From the NCBI RefSeq assembly GCF_021233055.1, contig NZ_CP089538.1, positions 2,496,501-2,560,500 of the forward strand: a DNA stretch of 64,000 bases, given 5' to 3'. Under the pieces are notes generated by a model. The model was not told the origin of the DNA. It searched no databases and saw only the letters and a list, made by a program, of their open reading frames with translations. Origin of the DNA: Spirosoma oryzicola. GTDB lineage: Bacteria; Bacteroidota; Bacteroidia; Cytophagales; Spirosomataceae. Shown here piece after piece: positions 23,545 to 37,991 of this stretch (positions are counted from its first letter, which is position 1; every line of letters starts with the position of its first letter). The position numbers were made by a program, and so were the translations under genes.

Positions 23545-24363
23545 TTAGGAGAATGCACAGACTTCGCAAGGGTTAGAGTCGTGTCCCAACTCGTCGCGCT
23601 CAATGCCGAATTCGGTGTAAAATTTATCCGCATCACGGCCCCAGTAGGCATTGAGTTCATTGCTCAGCTCGACTGCTTTAGCGAAGTAGTCTGGATAGTA
23701 CTTCTCCACATGGCGCAACTGAGCAATGTGCATATTCTTGTAGGGCAGGCAGTTATTATGTGAGAAGAGACGTTTCCCCTTTTCGTCAAGAATCTTGTAA
23801 ATGGCCGGGTACCAGCCTATTTCCTGCTCAACTATCGCAAAGCAATCGTCGTTACTCAGATTCAGAATCGGAAACCCTTTGTAGTACGCCAGATTCGGGT
23901 CTTTGCTGTACATAGTATCAGCCCGCTTCTTTTCTTCCCGGACGTAGCCAACTAAGTCTAATTGAATCTGATGTTCGACCATATACGAATACATGGGTTC
24001 TATTTTAAGCTTCTCTGTGCAGAACGCCCGTGTCGGATGCGGTATAAGTCGAATACTCCGAAAGAAGTCCAGCACTGAGTAATTGATCTGTTCGTAGTGC
24101 ACATTCCCAAAGTGCCGTTTGGCGTACTCAACACCCGCATGAACGAACACTTCGGTATCAGGTGAGTGCTCGACAATATGCGAGTAAAACAGATGCAGTT
24201 CAGCGGGCTTTTTCTCGTCTGGCAATGCCGCCAGCATGCACAGCAAGGCCATTGAATTGATGCCACCTGACAAACCGATCAAAACACGGAGGTCCGAGTA
24301 ATCTTCCGATTCAACAACGTGAACCGCCGTTTTCCGGTCGAAAAGTTCTAGTTGATTGCTCAT
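23545..24363 (-). CDS. PP-loop ATPase, PAPS-reductase-like
   Basis: A 272-residue protein starting at the ATG that overlaps the DUF5131 stop (ATGA). The PP-loop SGGINS is at 32-37, and the rest resembles the phosphoadenosine phosphosulfate reductase-like fold. PAPS reductases and their phage relatives activate sulfate or nucleotides with ATP. Cysteine motifs occur late (NNCLPY, and CEVC near the end), which could bind a metal or Fe-S cluster. In phage genomes such proteins often sit beside DUF5131, as here. The true substrate is unknown; assimilatory sulfate reduction is unlikely in this context. Confidence 0.8.
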   Translation of the reverse strand: MSNQLELFDRKTAVHVVESEDYSDLRVLIGLSGGINSMALLCMLAALPDEKKPAELHLFYSHIVEHSPDTEVFVHAGVEYAKRHFGNVHYEQINYSVLDFFRSIRLIPHPTRAFCTEKLKIEPMYSYMVEHQIQLDLVGYVREEKKRADTMYSKDPNLAYYKGFPILNLSNDDCFAIVEQEIGWYPAIYKILDEKGKRLFSHNNCLPYKNMHIAQLRHVEKYYPDYFAKAVELSNELNAYWGRDADKFYTEFGIERDELGHDSNPCEVCAFS

Positions 24364-25232
24364 AGCGGAAACTGTTGAACTTGTAAATAGGCAGGCCACT
24401 CGGTCGGATCGGTCGCATGACGCGCTTTGAAACCGTACTGTTTCTGTAAGCTGGTCCCGAGCTGTTTCACCCAACACGACGTACCCGCTTTGTGGCAATC
24501 GTCAACGACCTGTAAAATCCATTCGATCTGACAGGGTCGGTAGCGATACTGTCCGTTTTCGTTACCCGATTCCCCGCCGACGATAACCCAGGCCAAACCT
24601 CCGTCTGCCGCGCCGAGGTATTTGGAGATATCTACTTTCTCAAGCAGCGGTTCAATCGAAACAAAGTGAACATTGGCCGGAACAGACAACAGAATCGGTA
24701 CCCGCTTGTCGATGGTGTGCTGATAGCCTGCCGATACACCGAGCCAAACGTTCGCAGGCGGTATACCCCGTAGCCATTCGCCAAGCCAGTAAGCCAGGCT
24801 AAGCATACCGCTGTTGTTGCTCCCCTGATTCATCGCCTGCTCGTAGGCCAGCTCCAGCGCCAGCCGAATCCGACCGGGGCGTTTGGTTAAAATCTGATAC
24901 GTCAGATGCGGGGTTTTGCGGATAATGTCAAACGTTTCGAGCCGAAACGAATCGATATCCTTGTGAAAGAAATCCGTCAATGACGAGGTGAATACTTTGG
25001 CCGGTTCTTTCAAGCGCAACGGCAAATTGAACGCGCCACCCGATTTGACGGACGTCTGAGAAACCAGTTCGGGATTATGCCGCGTACCGTTCAATGATTC
25101 GCGGTACATGTAGCAGAATTCACATTCGGATACTTTCTCGCCGGTAGTGGGGTGTTTATCGTAAACTTTATGACAGCCCCGGGCAATGTTCCAGGTTATA
25201 TCTGTCCAGGAAATAGCAGTGTTGATACCCAT
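24360..25232 (-). CDS. DUF5131 (phage Gp37/Gp68) family protein, radical-SAM-like
   Basis: A 290-residue protein with the family opening ISWTDITWNIARGC, then ECEFCY. The cysteines C20, C37 and C40 form a CX16CX2C pattern, compatible with an Fe-S site as in radical-SAM/spore-photoproduct-lyase-like proteins; the spacing is longer than the usual short loop. Other family phrases are QILTKRPGR, ANVWLGVSA, VHFVSIEPLLEKVD, WVIVGGESG and WVKQLG. It overlaps the PP-loop gene by 4 bases, so the two are probably co-translated. The biochemical activity of the family is not established. Confidence 0.85.
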   Translation of the reverse strand: MGINTAISWTDITWNIARGCHKVYDKHPTTGEKVSECEFCYMYRESLNGTRHNPELVSQTSVKSGGAFNLPLRLKEPAKVFTSSLTDFFHKDIDSFRLETFDIIRKTPHLTYQILTKRPGRIRLALELAYEQAMNQGSNNSGMLSLAYWLGEWLRGIPPANVWLGVSAGYQHTIDKRVPILLSVPANVHFVSIEPLLEKVDISKYLGAADGGLAWVIVGGESGNENGQYRYRPCQIEWILQVVDDCHKAGTSCWVKQLGTSLQKQYGFKARHATDPTEWPAYLQVQQFPL

Positions 25233-30635: not shown

Positions 30636-31862
30636 ATGAACATCAACCGCATGGAAGTTAAATACTGGCTGCACGACTCCAAAACGCCGGGTAAAGCTCA
30701 GATCTATTGCAACATCACCGTAAAGGGACAGCGTATCCAGATTGGCTCTACAGGCATTACCATCTACCGAGATCACTGGAATGCCGACACACAACGGATC
30801 ACAAAACATAACCCCAGGTCACAGTTTTTAAACGAACAACTGATTGCCCAAGAGTTGCAGCTGATGAGCATCTTCACCGATTTATTTACGAAGAAAGCGC
30901 CTATCACTGCCGGTAAAATCAAGCGGCTATTTAAACAAGGGGCTGGCGAAACCACGGTATTGCTGACCGCTTTTGATCTGTTCTTAAAAGACGTTAAAAC
31001 GAATCCGGAATGTAGTGAGAATACCTGGGAAGCCTACGACGATTGCCGTAAAAAGCTGATTAACTTTCTGATCTCGGAGAAAGCCTTGGATTTAGTCGTT
31101 GAAGAATTCGACGTGGCCTATCTGAAGAAGTATCGCAAATGGATGAAGCTCATTCCAGTCGGCGATAAAATTGGCCACAAAGACAGCTACATCCGGAAAC
31201 ATAGTCAAACCATCAAACAAGTGACAAAGTGGGCAAAGGCCAACCACCTAGCTGATCATAACAACCTGGAAGGCTTCAAGGTCCCCAACGCCAAATACGA
31301 CGACCCCATCTACTTAACGGACGAAGAATTCGAACGCCTGGTAAACCATCGCTTTGATAACCCCCATAAGCAGCAAGCTGCCGATATGTTCATAATCTAT
31401 TGCCGGACAGGCTTCCACTATGGCGATCTTAAAGATTTTATTAAGCAGTACCAAACCGCTCTACGCCGGGGTATTGATGGCAAGCCTTGGCTGATCAAGG
31501 ATCGCATCAAAACGGAAGTAACCGCCAGAGTGCCCCAGTTCAAAGAAGTGGAAGCCATTGTCGAGAGATATGGTGGCTGGGAAAAACTGCCAGTCAAGGC
31601 CAATAAGACGATGAATGACTGGTTAAAATTGATTGCCGGCGAGCTAGGCTTCCATCCTGATCTGTCAACGAAGGCAGGTCGTAAGACATTTACTGACTGG
31701 TGTTACAATACGCTCGGTCTATCAACTGAAGCCGTCAAAGTAATGCTGGGTCGCAAGTCCGAGAAAGGCTTGGAAGTATATGGCCGACCTGACGAGCGCC
31801 GAGTTATTGCTGAATTAAATCAGAGTGTAGTTTTTAAACAGGATACACAAGATATGCCCTAG
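30636..31862 (+). CDS. Tyrosine recombinase (phage integrase) with divergent active site
   Basis: A 408-residue protein with the Bacteroidota integrase layout: arm-binding domain (about 1-100), SAM-like core-binding domain (110-215), catalytic domain (225-395). The nucleophile Y382 (EVYGR) and the second arginine R349 (AGRKTF) are present. The first arginine position reads TGFHYGDL (H261). The HxxR histidine is K346, and the LGH histidine is R373 (MLGRKS). Some Bacteroidota recombinases lack the first arginine, but three changes together are unusual. It is the likely integrase of the first element. Confidence 0.85.
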   Translation: MNINRMEVKYWLHDSKTPGKAQIYCNITVKGQRIQIGSTGITIYRDHWNADTQRITKHNPRSQFLNEQLIAQELQLMSIFTDLFTKKAPITAGKIKRLFKQGAGETTVLLTAFDLFLKDVKTNPECSENTWEAYDDCRKKLINFLISEKALDLVVEEFDVAYLKKYRKWMKLIPVGDKIGHKDSYIRKHSQTIKQVTKWAKANHLADHNNLEGFKVPNAKYDDPIYLTDEEFERLVNHRFDNPHKQQAADMFIIYCRTGFHYGDLKDFIKQYQTALRRGIDGKPWLIKDRIKTEVTARVPQFKEVEAIVERYGGWEKLPVKANKTMNDWLKLIAGELGFHPDLSTKAGRKTFTDWCYNTLGLSTEAVKVMLGRKSEKGLEVYGRPDERRVIAELNQSVVFKQDTQDMP

Positions 31863-31898
31863 CAATTTGCAATAGATCTTACGCTCTATTGCAAATTG
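31863..31898 (+). terminator. Long hairpin terminator after the integrase
   Basis: Perfect 14-base arms CAATTTGCAATAGA and TCTATTGCAAATTG with an 8-base loop, 1 base after the integrase stop codon. T-rich sequence follows about 15 bases later. It also marks the sharp change from balanced to AT-rich DNA. Confidence 0.65.
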
Positions 31899-31933
31899 TT
31901 TAACTAATTTATTTTTTTTCAAATGGAAAAGGC

Positions 31934-31988
31934 AGGCATTAAATAAATTAAGTTGAAATTGTTTAATAACTCAATTTATTTAATGCCT
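31934..31988 (-). terminator. Inverted repeat at the 3' end of the defence-like operon
   Basis: Perfect 16-base arms AGGCATTAAATAAATT and AATTTATTTAATGCCT enclose 23 bases and cover the stop codon of the PIN-like gene. It probably ends minus-strand transcription, although it could also be a remnant of the insertion boundary. Confidence 0.5.
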
Positions 31989-33419
31989 ATCTAACTGAAT
32001 ATCAATAATAGGTATATTGGTGCTAAAAAGCAATTTTAAAAAGTTATCTATTTCTTCGAATTTTAGATCAACAGTGTTTTCAATCTTTATTGTCAACCTA
32101 TTTGCTGAGGGTCCTTCAAATCTCACAAGGCGATTACTTAGAAAAGGCAAATCTCGAATCAAATTAGTAATTAATTTGATATGTTTACTTATTTCAGTAC
32201 TAGATAATAAAAATAGAGTTATATGTTCAACGTATGAGTTATCTAAAAAGTAATTCACTGTTTTCGTCATTATAGATTGTCTAATCGACTCCCAACCAAT
32301 TGATATATCATAACCCAAATTACTTATGAAGGCTGGTAATCTATTAATCTTATCTATTTCATTTGTATATAATGATAAGATTAAGCTATCACTGGAACTT
32401 AGCAAATTGTAAACACTCAATCCCAGAGCCTCTGTAATTTTTAGTATTTCTTTAACTCGAATAGGTGAGCCAATTTGGCTTTTAATTACTACCTCGACAA
32501 CATTAGATCTAATATCAATTGAACTTTCTCCAAAGGGAATAAAAGAATCTATCTTAAGCTGGTTTTGCGTAACTTCTGAGATTGTATCTGGTGATACTTT
32601 AGATTCTAAGTATTTATTAGCGTGCGAGAGGAAGGTGTCTGTTGAGTATATGTGAAATAATTTGTTAGTCAAAAGATAGAATTCTTCTATGAGTTGAGGT
32701 TGAGGTCCAAAAGTAGTGCTTTTGGATGCAGATTGCCACCACCAATCTGGTTTCTTTTCGTCAGTAACGAATATTACGGACTGATTATCAATTTTTGCTT
32801 TGTCAATTATTTGAAACCATATAATCAAATCTCCGTACTTTTCATTATCTGGCTTCGCTTTATCTGTAAAGCCAGGAGGTATTGAACTATCATAACGTTT
32901 TGCACCCATTTTGTAAATTTCATTTAGTCTGTCATTATCATAAGGACTTCCTATCGAATCTCCTAAATTATGGTGAACACTATTCAAAATTTTATCATCT
33001 CCAGATAAAAACAATCTATATTTTTCTTTATTAGTATTTATTTCAGATTCAATCCTTTGAGTTATGTCAGAGAAATTACTTAGCAAATCTTCAGAAAGAT
33101 GAGGAACTGATGTGCTACCAATTAGGTCATTTTTATAAGTGTTTAATAACTTTAGGGACTCAACGTGCTTGTCAATTAAATCTAAAATTACTTGCTTTCG
33201 TTTTCTATGAAATTCAAAACCAACTCTGTGTGTTAAAAAGCATCTATCTTTTAATTTCTCGATAAGTTCTAATATCATATCTCTAGTGTCTTCAGAATAT
33301 GAGTATAGATTAAGTAGGACATTTGTATCAAAAGTAATTAATGAATTTTGCCATAGATTATCTAGATCGTCAGTTGATTTATTTAAAAATCCAGCATATA
33401 AATCTTTCATCAATGCCAT
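31980..33419 (-). CDS. PIN-like (PIN_8/DUF4935-type) ribonuclease-like protein, defence candidate
   Basis: A 479-residue protein. The N-terminal about 235 residues form a PIN-like domain with the expected acidic residues: D31 in ITFDTNVLLNLY, E69 in RVGFEFHRKRK, D197 in KYGDLIIWFQII, and D220 in IFVTDEKKPDWWW, which is typical of the DUF4935 branch. A basic phrase PPGFTDKAKPDNEKYGD precedes the third. The remaining 240 residues are an AT-rich-encoded region of unknown fold, perhaps sensing or regulatory. PIN nucleases cleave RNA. It is the last gene of the resolvase-SIR2-DUF2971 operon, 53 bases after the DUF2971 gene. Confidence 0.75.
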   Translation of the reverse strand: MALMKDLYAGFLNKSTDDLDNLWQNSLITFDTNVLLNLYSYSEDTRDMILELIEKLKDRCFLTHRVGFEFHRKRKQVILDLIDKHVESLKLLNTYKNDLIGSTSVPHLSEDLLSNFSDITQRIESEINTNKEKYRLFLSGDDKILNSVHHNLGDSIGSPYDNDRLNEIYKMGAKRYDSSIPPGFTDKAKPDNEKYGDLIIWFQIIDKAKIDNQSVIFVTDEKKPDWWWQSASKSTTFGPQPQLIEEFYLLTNKLFHIYSTDTFLSHANKYLESKVSPDTISEVTQNQLKIDSFIPFGESSIDIRSNVVEVVIKSQIGSPIRVKEILKITEALGLSVYNLLSSSDSLILSLYTNEIDKINRLPAFISNLGYDISIGWESIRQSIMTKTVNYFLDNSYVEHITLFLLSSTEISKHIKLITNLIRDLPFLSNRLVRFEGPSANRLTIKIENTVDLKFEEIDNFLKLLFSTNIPIIDIQLDRH

Positions 33420-33472
33420 TTGGAAGTTAGTTTTGATTTTATTTGGGATATTAATTTATGTATAAACGTAGA

Positions 33473-34324
33473 CTAAATTGGAACTGATTTTATGTTGAAA
33501 ATAGAGGTGTCCATTTCCATTTTCATGACATTAGTCGGTGAATAGTCATTTTCTTTAACTAACATTAGTATTTCGTCTCTCTCTCTTTTGCTTAGCCTAC
33601 AACCTAGAAAGATCTCTTTTAAGCAAATCTTAGAAAAGGGAAATAAATCATACCCGTATCGGTCATTTATAAAGCCTCTGACTTCTTTTTCGTATTCCCA
33701 AACAGTCGATTTACTGGTTACCCAATGATCTATACATTTATCTGATTTATTGTAATAATTCACAGGATCTATTTTGCTAATATATTTAACCTTTTTCAAA
33801 GTCATAAAATAATGATCTTGACTTACGACAGGCTGAAAGCTAAAGCCAAAGCAAACTCCTCTATGCTTTTCTGCATAGTGACTCCACATTAAGGCAATAT
33901 CACTTTTTTCGCTAAAACAGCAAACGCCTGATTCTCTCCTTTGACGTGTGAAGCTTTCATACGCAAGACGCTCGAAGTTTTCAATGCCAACTTCTTTAAT
34001 TTTCTTTAATAATTCTCTTTTTTGCTTATTAGAATTATGATCAACAGCCTTTTGCATCCATAATTTTCTGCTTCTACCTGATGAAGTAAAGTCAATTAAA
34101 CCTTCAAACATATCAAATGGATCATTAAAACTTTCAGGAGATGAAAATTTAAGGCTTCTACCTGTTAATATTGATATGGCAGTGGTGTAAGATGCATAAT
34201 GATAAATTATTGGGGGTGGAATTTCATAAACAATATCTGGAAATAGTGGATGAAATTTTATTTGTTCAAAAGTGTCAATTTCTGTTCTCCTAGGAATTAA
34301 TAATAGTTTATCGCTCTTTTTCAT
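33473..34324 (-). CDS. DUF2971 family protein, defence candidate
   Basis: A 283-residue protein with the DUF2971 signatures: YHYASYTTAISILTGRSLKFSSPESFNDPFD (41-71), GVCCFSEKSDIALMWSHYAEKHRGVCFGF (133-161) and VWEYEKEVRGFI (208-219). The conserved S/P/N/D, Cys-Phe-Ser-Glu, Met-Trp-Ser-His-Tyr and Trp-Glu-Tyr-Glu-Lys-Glu residues are all intact. The family is frequent in genomic islands and beside phage-defence genes, but its activity is not established. It lies 12 bases after the SIR2-like gene, so the two are co-transcribed. Confidence 0.85.
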   Translation of the reverse strand: MKKSDKLLLIPRRTEIDTFEQIKFHPLFPDIVYEIPPPIIYHYASYTTAISILTGRSLKFSSPESFNDPFDMFEGLIDFTSSGRSRKLWMQKAVDHNSNKQKRELLKKIKEVGIENFERLAYESFTRQRRESGVCCFSEKSDIALMWSHYAEKHRGVCFGFSFQPVVSQDHYFMTLKKVKYISKIDPVNYYNKSDKCIDHWVTSKSTVWEYEKEVRGFINDRYGYDLFPFSKICLKEIFLGCRLSKRERDEILMLVKENDYSPTNVMKMEMDTSIFNIKSVPI

Positions 34325-34336
34325 TTATTCTTGATC

Positions 34337-35440
34337 TCAGTCATTCATCAATGAATTAAACAAACTTAAAAAGTCTTCAATTGTAGTGATGCTCGCTGTT
34401 GATCTTTTTACGATGTTTTTAAAATAAACTCCTTTAAATTGATCAGCAACTTGATCTGGATTTCTTGAACATATATACAGCCGCTGTGAAGGGTCTTTAA
34501 ATTTTCTTTGTATTAGAGATTTTAAGTGTGGTTCGTTTTGCATTGAATTTCCTATAATGATTAACTTATCAGCTTCTTCCAAAGACGAGGACATGAAATT
34601 ATAATAGTGGTTTAGAACTGGATCTCTTCTAATCAGTTGTTCTTTAAAAAGAGGATTGTTGAATATGATTACCGGATCTGAGTTTGCCTTGTTATTATCA
34701 TTTCGAGTTTTTAGTGTTTCTCCATTCTTCTTTTCAAATCTATATGAGCCATGCAGATGTATACATCTAATATGGTTGTTTTGTAGTGTATCATCATATA
34801 GTCTTAAGTAAAGAGGGTAATCCTTATTATTGCCAAACCCATCTACTGTAAGATACCCTAAATCCCTCGTTGATCTAGTTAGTAGAGTATCGAGTATACC
34901 ATCATAGTTAGTTGTGAAAAAATCACAGTCTTTAATATTATTTCTTTCAAGAATGGATTTGAAATGATCACCAAAAAAGGGAAATAGCCTTTTTAAATCT
35001 TTATAGCCTTCCGAGTTCTCGTGCTGCCTGAATTCTTCAGCAATATCTCTAATTCTATCAATTAATAAAAAGTCAAAAACTTCCTTTATACTTTCAATGG
35101 TTTCATGCGGTAATGCTTTTTGAAAAGCTTCAATACTTGAAAAAAAATCTATTACAGAATATATCATTCTTATTAGCTCTTCATCATTAAGCCTAGGATT
35201 TTTATCTTTAAGCTCGTAAAATAGCTCTTCAAACCTACGCCACAAAGATGTTATTGCACTAATAGCATTAGCTAAGTCGTCTTTTGAAGTTTTTAAGTTT
35301 GTGGGGAGAAGGTTTGTTGGAAAAGCTAACACAATGTCTCTAACAAGAAAATTAAAGCCATTTCCAATGATAAAGGCTATTTTTTGACCATCAGCTTCTT
35401 TAGAAACTGGTAAAAAATTGTCGTCTCGTGTGGATATCAT
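34337..35440 (-). CDS. SIR2-like NAD-binding protein, defence candidate
   Basis: A 367-residue protein with a SIR2-type fold: IAFIIGNGFN (21-30, glycine-rich NAD loop), DFFTTNYDGILD (TTNYD at 176-180), HLHGSY (228-233), DPVIIFNNPLF, and DKLIIIGNSMQNEPHLKSLI (291-310). The N178/D180 and H228 or H230 region matches the NAD-hydrolysing SIR2 enzymes of defence systems such as ThsA and DSR proteins, which deplete NAD on infection. There is no membrane segment. It is encoded between a serine resolvase and a DUF2971 gene, 10 and 12 bases away. Confidence 0.85.
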   Translation of the reverse strand: MISTRDDNFLPVSKEADGQKIAFIIGNGFNFLVRDIVLAFPTNLLPTNLKTSKDDLANAISAITSLWRRFEELFYELKDKNPRLNDEELIRMIYSVIDFFSSIEAFQKALPHETIESIKEVFDFLLIDRIRDIAEEFRQHENSEGYKDLKRLFPFFGDHFKSILERNNIKDCDFFTTNYDGILDTLLTRSTRDLGYLTVDGFGNNKDYPLYLRLYDDTLQNNHIRCIHLHGSYRFEKKNGETLKTRNDNNKANSDPVIIFNNPLFKEQLIRRDPVLNHYYNFMSSSLEEADKLIIIGNSMQNEPHLKSLIQRKFKDPSQRLYICSRNPDQVADQFKGVYFKNIVKRSTASITTIEDFLSLFNSLMND

Positions 35441-35450
35441 AAATTTACTT

Positions 35451-36023
35451 TTAATTAATATTTACGCCTCTGTAAGCTAAGTACTTATATACTGTTGTTC
35501 TCGATTTGTTTAACTGCGCAGCAATCATCTTTACTCCATAGCCTTCTTTATGAAGTGACTCAGCTATTCTAGCGGTATTTTTTGCCTCTTCGGTAAGCCC
35601 CTTTGGTTTGCCTCCTAACTTTCCTTTCAAACGTGCGACCTCTAAGCCAGCCATTGTTCTTTCCCGGATTATATTTCTTTCGTATTCGGCGAGCGAGCAG
35701 AAGAGATGGAAAATCAGCTTACCTGATGAAGTACTAGTATCAATCTTATCATTGACGCTGGAGAAGGAGACACCTTTATCGGAAAATTGATTCACTAATT
35801 CGATTAGATGTGTTAGTGAGCGCCCCAGTCGATCAAGTTTCCAAACGACTACTTCATCTCCCGATCGTAGATGAGCAATCATCATTTGTAATTGGGGGCG
35901 TTCCTTGGACGTTCCGCTTACTTTCTCTTGAAATATCTTTTCGCATCCAACATTTTGCAGGGCATTTAGCTGAAGATCTAAATTTTGGTCAAATGTGGAA
36001 ACACGGGCATATCCAATCCTCAT
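35451..36023 (-). CDS. Serine recombinase, resolvase/invertase type
   Basis: A 190-residue protein; ATG 36023 (MRIGYARVST) is chosen because the longer frame only adds non-conserved residues. The catalytic serine is S9 in YARVSTFDQNLDLQ. Arginine-rich catalytic phrases VVWKLDRLGRSLTHL and AEYERNIIRERTMAGLEVAR follow, then a C-terminal helix-turn-helix (YGVKMIAAQLNKSRTTVYKYL). The size is that of Tn3-type resolvases and Hin/Pin invertases. It heads the AT-rich operon, so it may mobilise or regulate the defence genes. Confidence 0.85.
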   Translation of the reverse strand: MRIGYARVSTFDQNLDLQLNALQNVGCEKIFQEKVSGTSKERPQLQMMIAHLRSGDEVVVWKLDRLGRSLTHLIELVNQFSDKGVSFSSVNDKIDTSTSSGKLIFHLFCSLAEYERNIIRERTMAGLEVARLKGKLGGKPKGLTEEAKNTARIAESLHKEGYGVKMIAAQLNKSRTTVYKYLAYRGVNIN

Positions 36024-36075: not shown

Positions 36076-36176
36076 ATCAATATTGGACTAGTTATATGGA
36101 CGCTTAATTACCTGACTTTATGTAACGGTAGACTGCAATGAGTATGATTGCTAAAACGACCGTTTATCTGTACATC

Positions 36177-36209
36177 AAAAAAGCCCCCGGTTATCTCGGG
36201 GGCTTTTTT
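36177..36209. terminator. Bidirectional terminator at the left end of the second element
   Basis: Thirteen-base arms AAAAAAGCCCCCG and CGGGGGCTTTTTT with an 8-base loop form a GC stem flanked by A6 and T6. It stops the minus-strand lysis genes, whose last stop codon is at 36208, and protects them from plus-strand transcription. Confidence 0.9.
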
Positions 36210-36615
36210 ACTTTCGGAAGATTAGGCGACCGATCAGCGTGGCCAGGATCGATGAGCGTTGAAACCAGAGCTCAGCTCGCTGCGCACGGATCTGTCGAGC
36301 CTGGCGTCGGATCGTTTGATCCTGCTCATCGATACGCTTGAGCAGGCCCGTAACCAGGGTGTCACTCGTCGACTGGGCTTTCCGGAGCTGATCAACCTGG
36401 TAGGTCAGGTTGGGGACCGAGATCCGGTCAGCGATCGCCTGGCGGGCCTGGGGCTCAGTCAGTCGAACTGGGCGCGGCTCTAGGTATGGCAGGGTATCCT
36501 GTACTAGCGTTTGGCTTTGCGAAAAGGCTGTCGATAACGTGCTGCAACTGATCAGCAGGAATGCGATCCACAGCCGTTTGAAGCTGTTGTCTGACTTGTT
36601 CGGCGCTGTCTGCAT
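36208..36615 (-). CDS. Outer-membrane spanin-like lipoprotein candidate
   Basis: A 135-residue protein with an N-terminal hydrophobic segment ending in a lipobox (FLLISC, cysteine at residue about 24), then a periplasmic coiled-coil-like stretch (LLKRIDEQDQTIRRQARQIRAQRAEL) and a slightly hydrophobic basic C-terminus. Its first 160 bases overlap the preceding gene in another frame. That is the arrangement of phage Rz/Rz1 spanin pairs. The protein is longer than most o-spanins. Confidence 0.5.
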   Translation of the reverse strand: MQTAPNKSDNSFKRLWIAFLLISCSTLSTAFSQSQTLVQDTLPYLEPRPVRLTEPQARQAIADRISVPNLTYQVDQLRKAQSTSDTLVTGLLKRIDEQDQTIRRQARQIRAQRAELWFQRSSILATLIGRLIFRK

Positions 36616-37326: not shown

Positions 37327-37991
37327 TGTTCTAGGTAAGGCGTCAGATGGTTGGCTATCGCTTTAATCTCACTTTTGCGCCGGCGGTTGAGGTAGCAGCC
37401 GCCCTTGGTACCGGTTCCACCGGTGGTATTAAAACCGATCGTCATCACGTAATCCGCATCGTCGTTCCAGCGATCGTCGGCCAGTCCTTCCACGTGACTG
37501 GCGTAAAGCGAAACGAAGTCCATCTTCTTGGGTGGTGGCCCGATCCGCTGATTACCCCGGGCACCCCGCTGGTAGACGATCTTGGCTTTATCCCGAAAGT
37601 AAACTTTCACGTACCCCACCGATTTGACCGTTAACCAAGCCCCGTTCTTAGCGTAGGCGTAGTATAGTCCAGAAGCGCAATACAGTGCCTGGGAGGGCAA
37701 GTGATTAAATTTGTTGATCCGCGTAATCCAGGGGGCGTCGTTGTGGTTGGTGCGTTCGGTCTTGCCCAGAAACTGAGCCGCCGTGTCATAGATCGCCTGA
37801 CGTAGGGCCTGCTCATCGAGCGTGATGGGATTTTCCCGGGCTGGCGTGCCCAAACGCACCGTCGCTGAGCGGACGGTGCGTTTGGGCACGCCAGCCCGGG
37901 GCTTTTTACTCAGGGCTTCACCGAGTGGGACAAGGCTGAATGCAACAAAAGCAAGCCAAGCAGTAAGACGGTAAGTATTGAGCGTTGCCAT
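37314..37991 (-). CDS. Endolysin with N-terminal signal/SAR segment (CHAP-like)
   Basis: A 225-residue protein. Residues 10-26 (TAWLAFVAFSLVPLGEAL) form a signal or signal-anchor-release segment, allowing Sec-dependent export without a holin. After a basic linker, the catalytic part has C105 in SQALYCASGLYYAY, H166 in LYASHVEGL and N188 in GFNTTGGTG, an order consistent with CHAP/NlpC cysteine peptidases. The C-terminus is basic. A 29-base perfect inverted repeat lies in the linker part. The gene overlaps its upstream neighbour by 82 bases. Confidence 0.65.
   Translation of the reverse strand: MATLNTYRLTAWLAFVAFSLVPLGEALSKKPRAGVPKRTVRSATVRLGTPARENPITLDEQALRQAIYDTAAQFLGKTERTNHNDAPWITRINKFNHLPSQALYCASGLYYAYAKNGAWLTVKSVGYVKVYFRDKAKIVYQRGARGNQRIGPPPKKMDFVSLYASHVEGLADDRWNDDADYVMTIGFNTTGGTGTKGGCYLNRRRKSEIKAIANHLTPYLEQWKP
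37835..37900. repeat. Perfect 29-bp inverted repeat inside the endolysin gene
   Basis: The left arm is 37835-37863 (beginning CCCGGGCTGGCG), the right arm is 37872-37900 and is its exact complement; the loop is 8 bases. GC-rich arms of this length would form an extremely stable RNA hairpin or cruciform. It encodes residues 31-52 of the endolysin, where the protein reads PRAGVPKRTV-RSA-TVRLGTPAR, and starts 9 bases after the upstream stop codon. Confidence 0.9.

Follow-up and report, generated by a model that had tools for sequence, protein, structure and literature searches.

Organisation of the locus

We analysed a window of 64,000 nucleotides from Spirosoma oryzicola (contig NZ_CP089538.1, positions 2,496,501 to 2,560,500 of the forward strand; coordinates below count from its first base), and in particular a run of four minus-strand genes situated in a prophage, between the gene of the tyrosine integrase and the phage late genes. 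The run encodes a small serine recombinase followed by three cargo proteins of the SIR2, DUF2971 and PIN_8 families. We read it as an apparent AT-rich operon in a prophage slot, composed probably of anti-phage genes that were acquired separately and can be exchanged (a moron), and not of one conserved four-part system. The genes and the two borders of the slot are:

30636..31862, plus strand, tyrosine integrase of the prophage, bordering the slot (Pfam and PHROG matches; relatives found)
31980..33419, minus strand, PIN_8 (DUF4935) protein, predicted RNase, 479 aa
33473..34324, minus strand, DUF2971 protein (PADLOC PDC-S31), predicted ADP-ribosyltransferase-like fold, 283 aa
34337..35440, minus strand, SIR2_2 protein, predicted NAD+ hydrolase, 367 aa
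35451..36023, minus strand, small serine recombinase of the resolvase/invertase type, at the head of the operon, 190 aa with the ATG at 36023
36208..36615, minus strand, first phage gene beyond the slot, in a minus-strand late-gene block running to ~66 kb; no family match

The Pfam matches were strongest for PIN_8 (1.4e-55) and Resolvase (7.8e-46), followed by DUF2971 (1.7e-8) and SIR2_2 (1.4e-6); the longest frame of the recombinase has a TTG start at 36080. An earlier reading of this DNA (the sequence-only reading) had described the four genes as a single, conspicuously AT-rich run between two element ends of balanced composition. The run itself is confirmed by the coordinates and open reading frames, with gaps of 10 bp (recombinase to SIR2), 12 bp (SIR2 to DUF2971) and 53 bp (DUF2971 to PIN_8), and so is the low GC content (PIN_8 30.3%, DUF2971 32.3%, SIR2 31.8%, recombinase 41.0%, against 51.1% for the whole window). 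The flanks do have a higher GC content (46.4% in the integrase on one side and 57–58% in the phage genes on the other), but they are the integrase and further prophage genes, not the ends of a small element. At third codon positions (GC3) the three cargo genes reach 0.24–0.27, the recombinase 0.37, the integrase 0.55 and three phage genes 0.62–0.70. Strand and spacing suggest a single transcript for all four genes, and three hairpins lie at or near the ends of the run:

31861..31900, plus strand, hairpin 3' of the integrase gene, z -8.1
31930..31992, minus strand, hairpin (22-bp stem) closing the operon at its 3' end, z -8.9
36178..36208, minus strand, GC-rich hairpin with a U-run, 3' of the last phage late gene and just upstream of the operon, z -4.1

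The second is likely the terminator of the operon and the third likely a terminator insulating it. A search of 29–37 kb against Rfam returned no match.

A variable slot beside the integrase

The integrase was searched in 150 genomes of the family to which S. oryzicola belongs (E <= 1e-60), which gave 30 places in 20 genomes, and the slot was read at 18 of these 30; the late genes past the slot were recognized with PHROGs in the window and by eye in the sister prophages. A small serine recombinase is present in ten of the 18 slots, seven being close relatives (the one in the window included) and three distant ones (L171, 6.7e-16; L173, 8.1e-15; L179, 1.1e-9); the resolvase of genome G236 lies > 8 kb from the integrase and was left out of the count. 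Resolvase relatives at E <= 1e-40 occupy 97 places in 53/241 genomes, so that a chance resolvase within a given 8 kb would be rare, an estimate that ignores shared phage descent. Genes that match PADLOC or belong to DUF2971 were found in 5/18 slots, namely the window, a Septu-bearing slot of the same genome, and the slots of G338, G442 (AbiGi, 3.4e-31) and G421 (an OLD/AbiLi-like ATPase). The slot of G382 holds a DUF4062 gene without a PADLOC match. In G338, from another genus of the same family, the integrase lies on the plus strand and DUF2971 and the resolvase on the minus strand, in the order seen in the window and 27 bp apart, without SIR2 or PIN_8. The prophages thus share a fixed site beside the integrase (18 places) with differing cargo, including named defence families (5/18), as in a prophage hotspot.

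Four of these integrases belong to S. oryzicola itself. Three related prophages are arranged in tandem, their integrases lying at 30636, 76343 and ~121 kb in window coordinates, the second and third being 83% and 58% identical to the first. Beside its integrase the second prophage carries a TPR protein, a resolvase and a 272-aa protein, and the third carries two genes, a resolvase and proteins of 268 and 284 aa. The fourth relative lies at C1:4241407, where the slot (L179:6607-11212) comprises Septu (PtuA 6.8e-124, PtuB 1.2e-84), one of the distant serine recombinases and a protein of 565 aa, without a Pfam or PADLOC match but similar by eye to the KAP-like ATPase in G442. Exact matches of 15–17 bases were found as possible attachment sites of the tandem prophages, none of them common to all three slots at one place.

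One system or separate genes

The sequence-only reading had proposed that the four genes form one combined defence system with a division into sensor and effectors, and had asked whether they are found together in other genomes. Single proteins were searched over 390 genomes of the order, the own genome counted. SIR2 relatives occur in 10/390 genomes at E <= 1e-3 (six of them clear), DUF2971 in 41/390 and PIN_8 in 22/390, and outside the own genome no second member of the three families lay within 1.5 kb at the SIR2 places, at the 24 PIN_8 places or at 29 of the 46 DUF2971 places; searches with single proteins may miss remote relatives. None of 21 SIR2 loci in the genome_contigs set, read with flanks of up to 8 kb (shortened by contig ends at L012, L016, L019, L025 and L030), had DUF2971, PIN_8 or the recombinase of this operon nearby, and the scan that yielded them is not exhaustive because two short patterns were used. 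SIR2 relatives were absent from the viral contigs (single-protein and alignment scans) and gave no match in the phage and plasmid records; DUF2971 was found in 5 of 50,697 phage records and at five loci in viral contigs. The sole recurring pair is resolvase and DUF2971. A serine recombinase lies near 4/29 DUF2971 loci, and the one at L043 is a close relative by sequence (4e-68).

It is unlikely, we judge, that the four genes are one dedicated, recently arisen defence system, with DUF2971 or PIN_8 as the putative sensor of infection and SIR2 depleting NAD+. The single run with gaps of 10–53 bp and the matched composition of the three cargo genes would suit such a system, but no second example appeared at the SIR2 and PIN_8 places of the 390 genomes, at the 21 SIR2 loci or in phage and plasmid records, and relatives of DUF2971 and PIN_8 occur without the others. 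As far as searched, SIR2, DUF2971 and PIN_8 are not conserved together, and a single four-gene system was rejected for that reason. What holds of the earlier proposal is the candidacy for defence, which is backed by the location and by homology (PDC-S31 and the defence genes of sister slots); the undescribed single system is not.

We prefer the reading as a moron because the cargo of the slot changes, the recombinase recurs and no co-conservation was found in the genomes searched. Several points weigh against it. In 13/18 slots no gene can be assigned to a named defence family; these include two with broken integrases (L176, L184), one (L174) with a single 187-aa gene before phage-like genes, and several with small or membrane-like proteins. 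The family-library scans left out the cargo of 10/18 slots (L171, L172, L174–L177, L181–L184). Since transposase-like genes and a TPR protein are found in slots as well, besides the small or membrane-like proteins, defence is not the sole use of the slot. The tight spacing could mean cooperation here even if nowhere else. The function of the operon genes is predicted from sequence, models and context. For transcription, a sigma-70 promoter scan found 20 sites against 19.2 expected, with a model that does not cover the promoters of this phylum, and a pattern scan gave two terminator-like sites against 2.6 expected, neither at the ends of the operon.

The small serine recombinase

The recombinase has the Pfam domains Resolvase and HTH_7 and matches a PHROG of DNA invertases (4.2e-71); S9, R65 and R68, which we take to be the catalytic residues, are present. 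Its recurrence in the slots leads us to guess that it is a mobility gene of the cargo. A stronger form of this idea is a resolvase-headed mobile cassette: a Tn3-like remnant, with the effectors as passengers, whose recombinase and recombination site would capture and swap cargo. Resolvase relatives do adjoin genes that read like Tn3-type transposases (L143, L145, L147) and directly precede unrelated cargo, such as DUF2971 (L127), YhcG/PDC-S02 (L139, 1.5e-140) and others, and the GC content of the resolvase differs from that of its cargo. We nevertheless regard the cassette as quite improbable: the Pfam scan revealed no transposase among the four operon genes and four neighbours, no inverted repeats frame the operon in the region searched (28.9–36.7 kb), and in G442 the recombinase comes after the AbiGi gene, not before it. 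Recombinases are reported to be often adjacent to anti-phage genes, in a role that was unknown (PMC12529663). PinQ, treated in the same article, is likewise a small serine recombinase of a prophage, but it inverts a defined DNA segment (PMC12529663); no inverted target was found at the operon of the window.

Two paralogues of the resolvase were seen on smaller contigs of the same genome, at C6:30366 (L133) and C7:97317 (L134), and after the former come another recombinase-like gene and a large one whose sequence suggests a restriction-type protein.

Predicted functions of the cargo proteins

In the SIR2 protein, the residues G26, N27, G28, N30, T177, N178, D180, H230, G297 and S299 are invariant (48 of 57 homologues aligned), in agreement with the earlier statement that the NAD-site motifs are kept, and the predicted model is nearest to the SIR2 protein of SIR2-HerA. 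Sequence and model together predict an NAD+ hydrolase. The likeness to SIR2-HerA (Nezha) extends to the SIR2 fold with the catalytic N and H in the predicted model; the identity is 14–16%, however, and the operon has no HerA gene, a match to an ATPase family being absent from all four of its genes. Thoeris differs in its TIR protein (ThsB), which has no match among the operon genes. DSR proteins are long, and unlike DSR1/DSR2 the SIR2 protein of the window has only 367 aa and is not a long protein with a C-terminal sensor region.

The PIN_8 protein is predicted from its sequence to be an RNase. A Pfam match together with the acidic site places it in PIN_8/DUF4935: among the four acidic residues listed by the sequence-only reading, D31, E69 and D197 do not vary across the 24 homologues aligned, but D220, although present, is not the conserved position, which is column 221 (90% conserved), where the protein of the window has E. 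Its C-terminal part (residues ~290–479) is hardly covered among the 119 homologues listed (coverage 56–75% of the query).

The DUF2971 protein matches the PADLOC phage-defence candidate PDC-S31 (6.3e-43) and is of the same family; PDC-S31 is a candidate only, and here a fold and a possible active site are proposed in addition. All signature residues had been said to be kept, and every invariant of the 52 aligned homologues (of 120 listed) is indeed present: FNDP, LMWSHY, H154, K205, W209 and Y211-E-x-E-x-R216. The model has a pLDDT of 92, and its best structural matches are DarT and Tpt1 at low TM-scores (0.3–0.44). E212 and E214, candidates for the catalytic glutamate in the third motif of ADP-ribosyltransferases (ARTs), are found in 52/52 aligned sequences and precede or begin the strand 214–219. 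Comparison by hhalign with profiles of DarT (8/10 places used) and KptA (18/18 places used) gave probabilities of 0.1 and 3.0, and the control pair DarT–KptA also failed (3.7). Unlike DarT/DarTG and Tpt1/KptA, the DUF2971 model has a helical stretch at 83–131, and DarTG differs further in its macrodomain (DarG-like), which has no match among the operon genes. A search against PDB sequences returned no match up to E 10.

Its predicted ART-like nature, suggested by the model, is the one real lead of the analysis. We tentatively propose, as quite possible though somewhat short of probable, that DUF2971 is an unrecognised class of ADP-ribosyltransferases that serve as effectors triggered by phage. 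This prophage would add to it the SIR2 NADase and the PIN RNase, and would thus turn two different NAD+-consuming enzymes and RNA cleavage against an invader from one slot. The family counts at least 729 matching database proteins (the own protein included), the nearest named relatives being from Spirosoma; it is after these relatives that we call the family searched above Spirosomaceae and its order Cytophagales. If DUF2971 is an ART, a large family without stated function gains a testable chemistry. In the literature searched, outside which most subscription journals fall, DUF2971 is barely mentioned and PF11185 is not, and the ART idea may still have been published. A sequence kinship between DUF2971 and AbiGi was considered and not found (hhalign probability 0.3, one AbiGi sequence), despite a common motif start, YHY/FHF followed by a helix. 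The genome also carries a DarT family gene at C1:1608732 (L249; PF14487, 1.5e-54).

Proposed mode of action and comparison with known hotspots

With folds that are predicted from models, the following course may be envisaged. The trigger would be the infection of the lysogen by a rival phage. NAD+ would then be hydrolysed by the SIR2 protein and used as well by the DUF2971 protein, which would ADP-ribosylate a target that may be DNA, RNA or protein; RNA would be cleaved by the PIN_8 protein. By damaging the cell or bringing it to a halt, each effector would block the growth of the phage and thereby presumably protect the lysogen. The serine recombinase would be the mobility part that moves cargo in and out of the slot and would be dispensable for the effector chemistry.

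Prophage defence slots are already known from P2-like phages (Rousset 2022, PMC9122126). The antiviral hotspots of P2-like prophages and P4-like satellites described there resemble the present one in the fixed site within a phage family, the changing cargo and the relatives of known defence systems (PMC9122126), whereas here the phage family is another one, the slot lies beside the integrase, a small serine recombinase is present in 10/18 slots and the antiviral activity is predicted. The kind of locus is ordinary, namely a defence slot in a prophage; the mix of genes is unusual. The locus extends such slots to another phage family, in which a small serine recombinase recurs. Unfamiliar genes in the integrase slot, or at the chromosomal place described below, make good defence candidates.

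A second variable place behind nrdA

The SIR2 searches also led to a further variable place, this one on the chromosome 3' of nrdA, in genomes of the Pontibacter-Hymenobacter family (Hymenobacteraceae), by which we mean the family of G315 and G101; the name is inferred, the SIR2 scores being equal to those of named Pontibacter/Hymenobacter loci. The ribonucleotide reductase (RNR) was identified by Pfam at L020 and elsewhere by similarity to the L020 protein. At E <= 1e-20, SIR2 was found in 16/200 genomes of this family, and in 15 of the 16 a copy follows nrdA in the same orientation (15/18 places), at a distance of 61–141 bp in 14 genomes and of 346 bp in one broken copy; a disrupted SIR2 copy occurs in at least three of the 16 (L191, L195, L196). 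In the genome_contigs set, which overlaps the 200 genomes, 14 of the 21 SIR2 loci lie behind nrdA. The gene nrdA itself was present in 100/100 genomes, and the 3' place was read in 50 of them (L199–L248; 30 with 1.5 kb and 20 with up to 5 kb). SIR2 occupies 6/50 of these places. Ten other genes were scanned, picked by size and not at random, with a further 33/50 places unscanned, and comprised three DRT reverse transcriptases (two UG19, one UG21), two dGTPases on the opposite strand, one OLD/GajA-like gene, two KAP ATPases with PADLOC matches of merely ~1e-4, and two without a match. At L229, PIN_8 lies ~1 kb downstream of nrdA on the opposite strand.

The 14/21 loci first suggested that SIR2 works with ribonucleotide reductase, sensing deoxynucleotide pools. 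The same-strand copies behind nrdA in 15/16 SIR2-bearing genomes speak for this, as does the fact that structures sharing the SIR2 fold include KomBC, solved with dITP. We now hold such a partnership to be highly improbable: the place is occupied elsewhere by unrelated genes (DRT, dGTPase, OLD/GajA-like, KAP ATPases, PIN_8), 184/200 genomes of the family lack SIR2 at the threshold used, and the SIR2 copy of the window sits in a prophage. Because of these unrelated occupants, the link to nrdA seems to reflect a common site of insertion and not a functional partnership. A literature search on SIR2, ribonucleotide reductase, defence and NADase returned only a jumbo-phage review, and one on nrdA with defence island, Hymenobacter or hotspot returned nothing on this place, both judged by titles.

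The place 3' of nrdA often has one same-strand gene 50–140 bp behind (SIR2, DRT UG19/UG21, OLD-like, KAP ATPase). One gene family is common to the two places: KAP-like P-loop ATPases were seen in the prophage slot at L178 as well as behind nrdA at L221 and L245.

Neighbouring genes

On the integrase side, the prophage also has a phage replication initiation protein and a DnaC-like helicase loader, and on the other side a head maturation protease, a tape-measure protein and a weak portal match (3.5e-4), all by PHROGs. The position of the first phage gene beyond the slot (36208..36615) suggests a role in lysis. A near-perfect inverted repeat (37835–37900; 67 columns, 95.5%) lies within the phage genes. 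Left of the phage replication genes, at 23545–25232, a DUF5131 gene (3.5e-51) stands beside a gene with a sub-threshold PAPS-reductase match, and between prophages 1 and 2, at ~67.3–70.0 kb in window coordinates and so past the end of the window (L009), are genes that resemble arsenic resistance (permease, phosphatase-like, methyltransferase-like, small regulator), named from their sequence.

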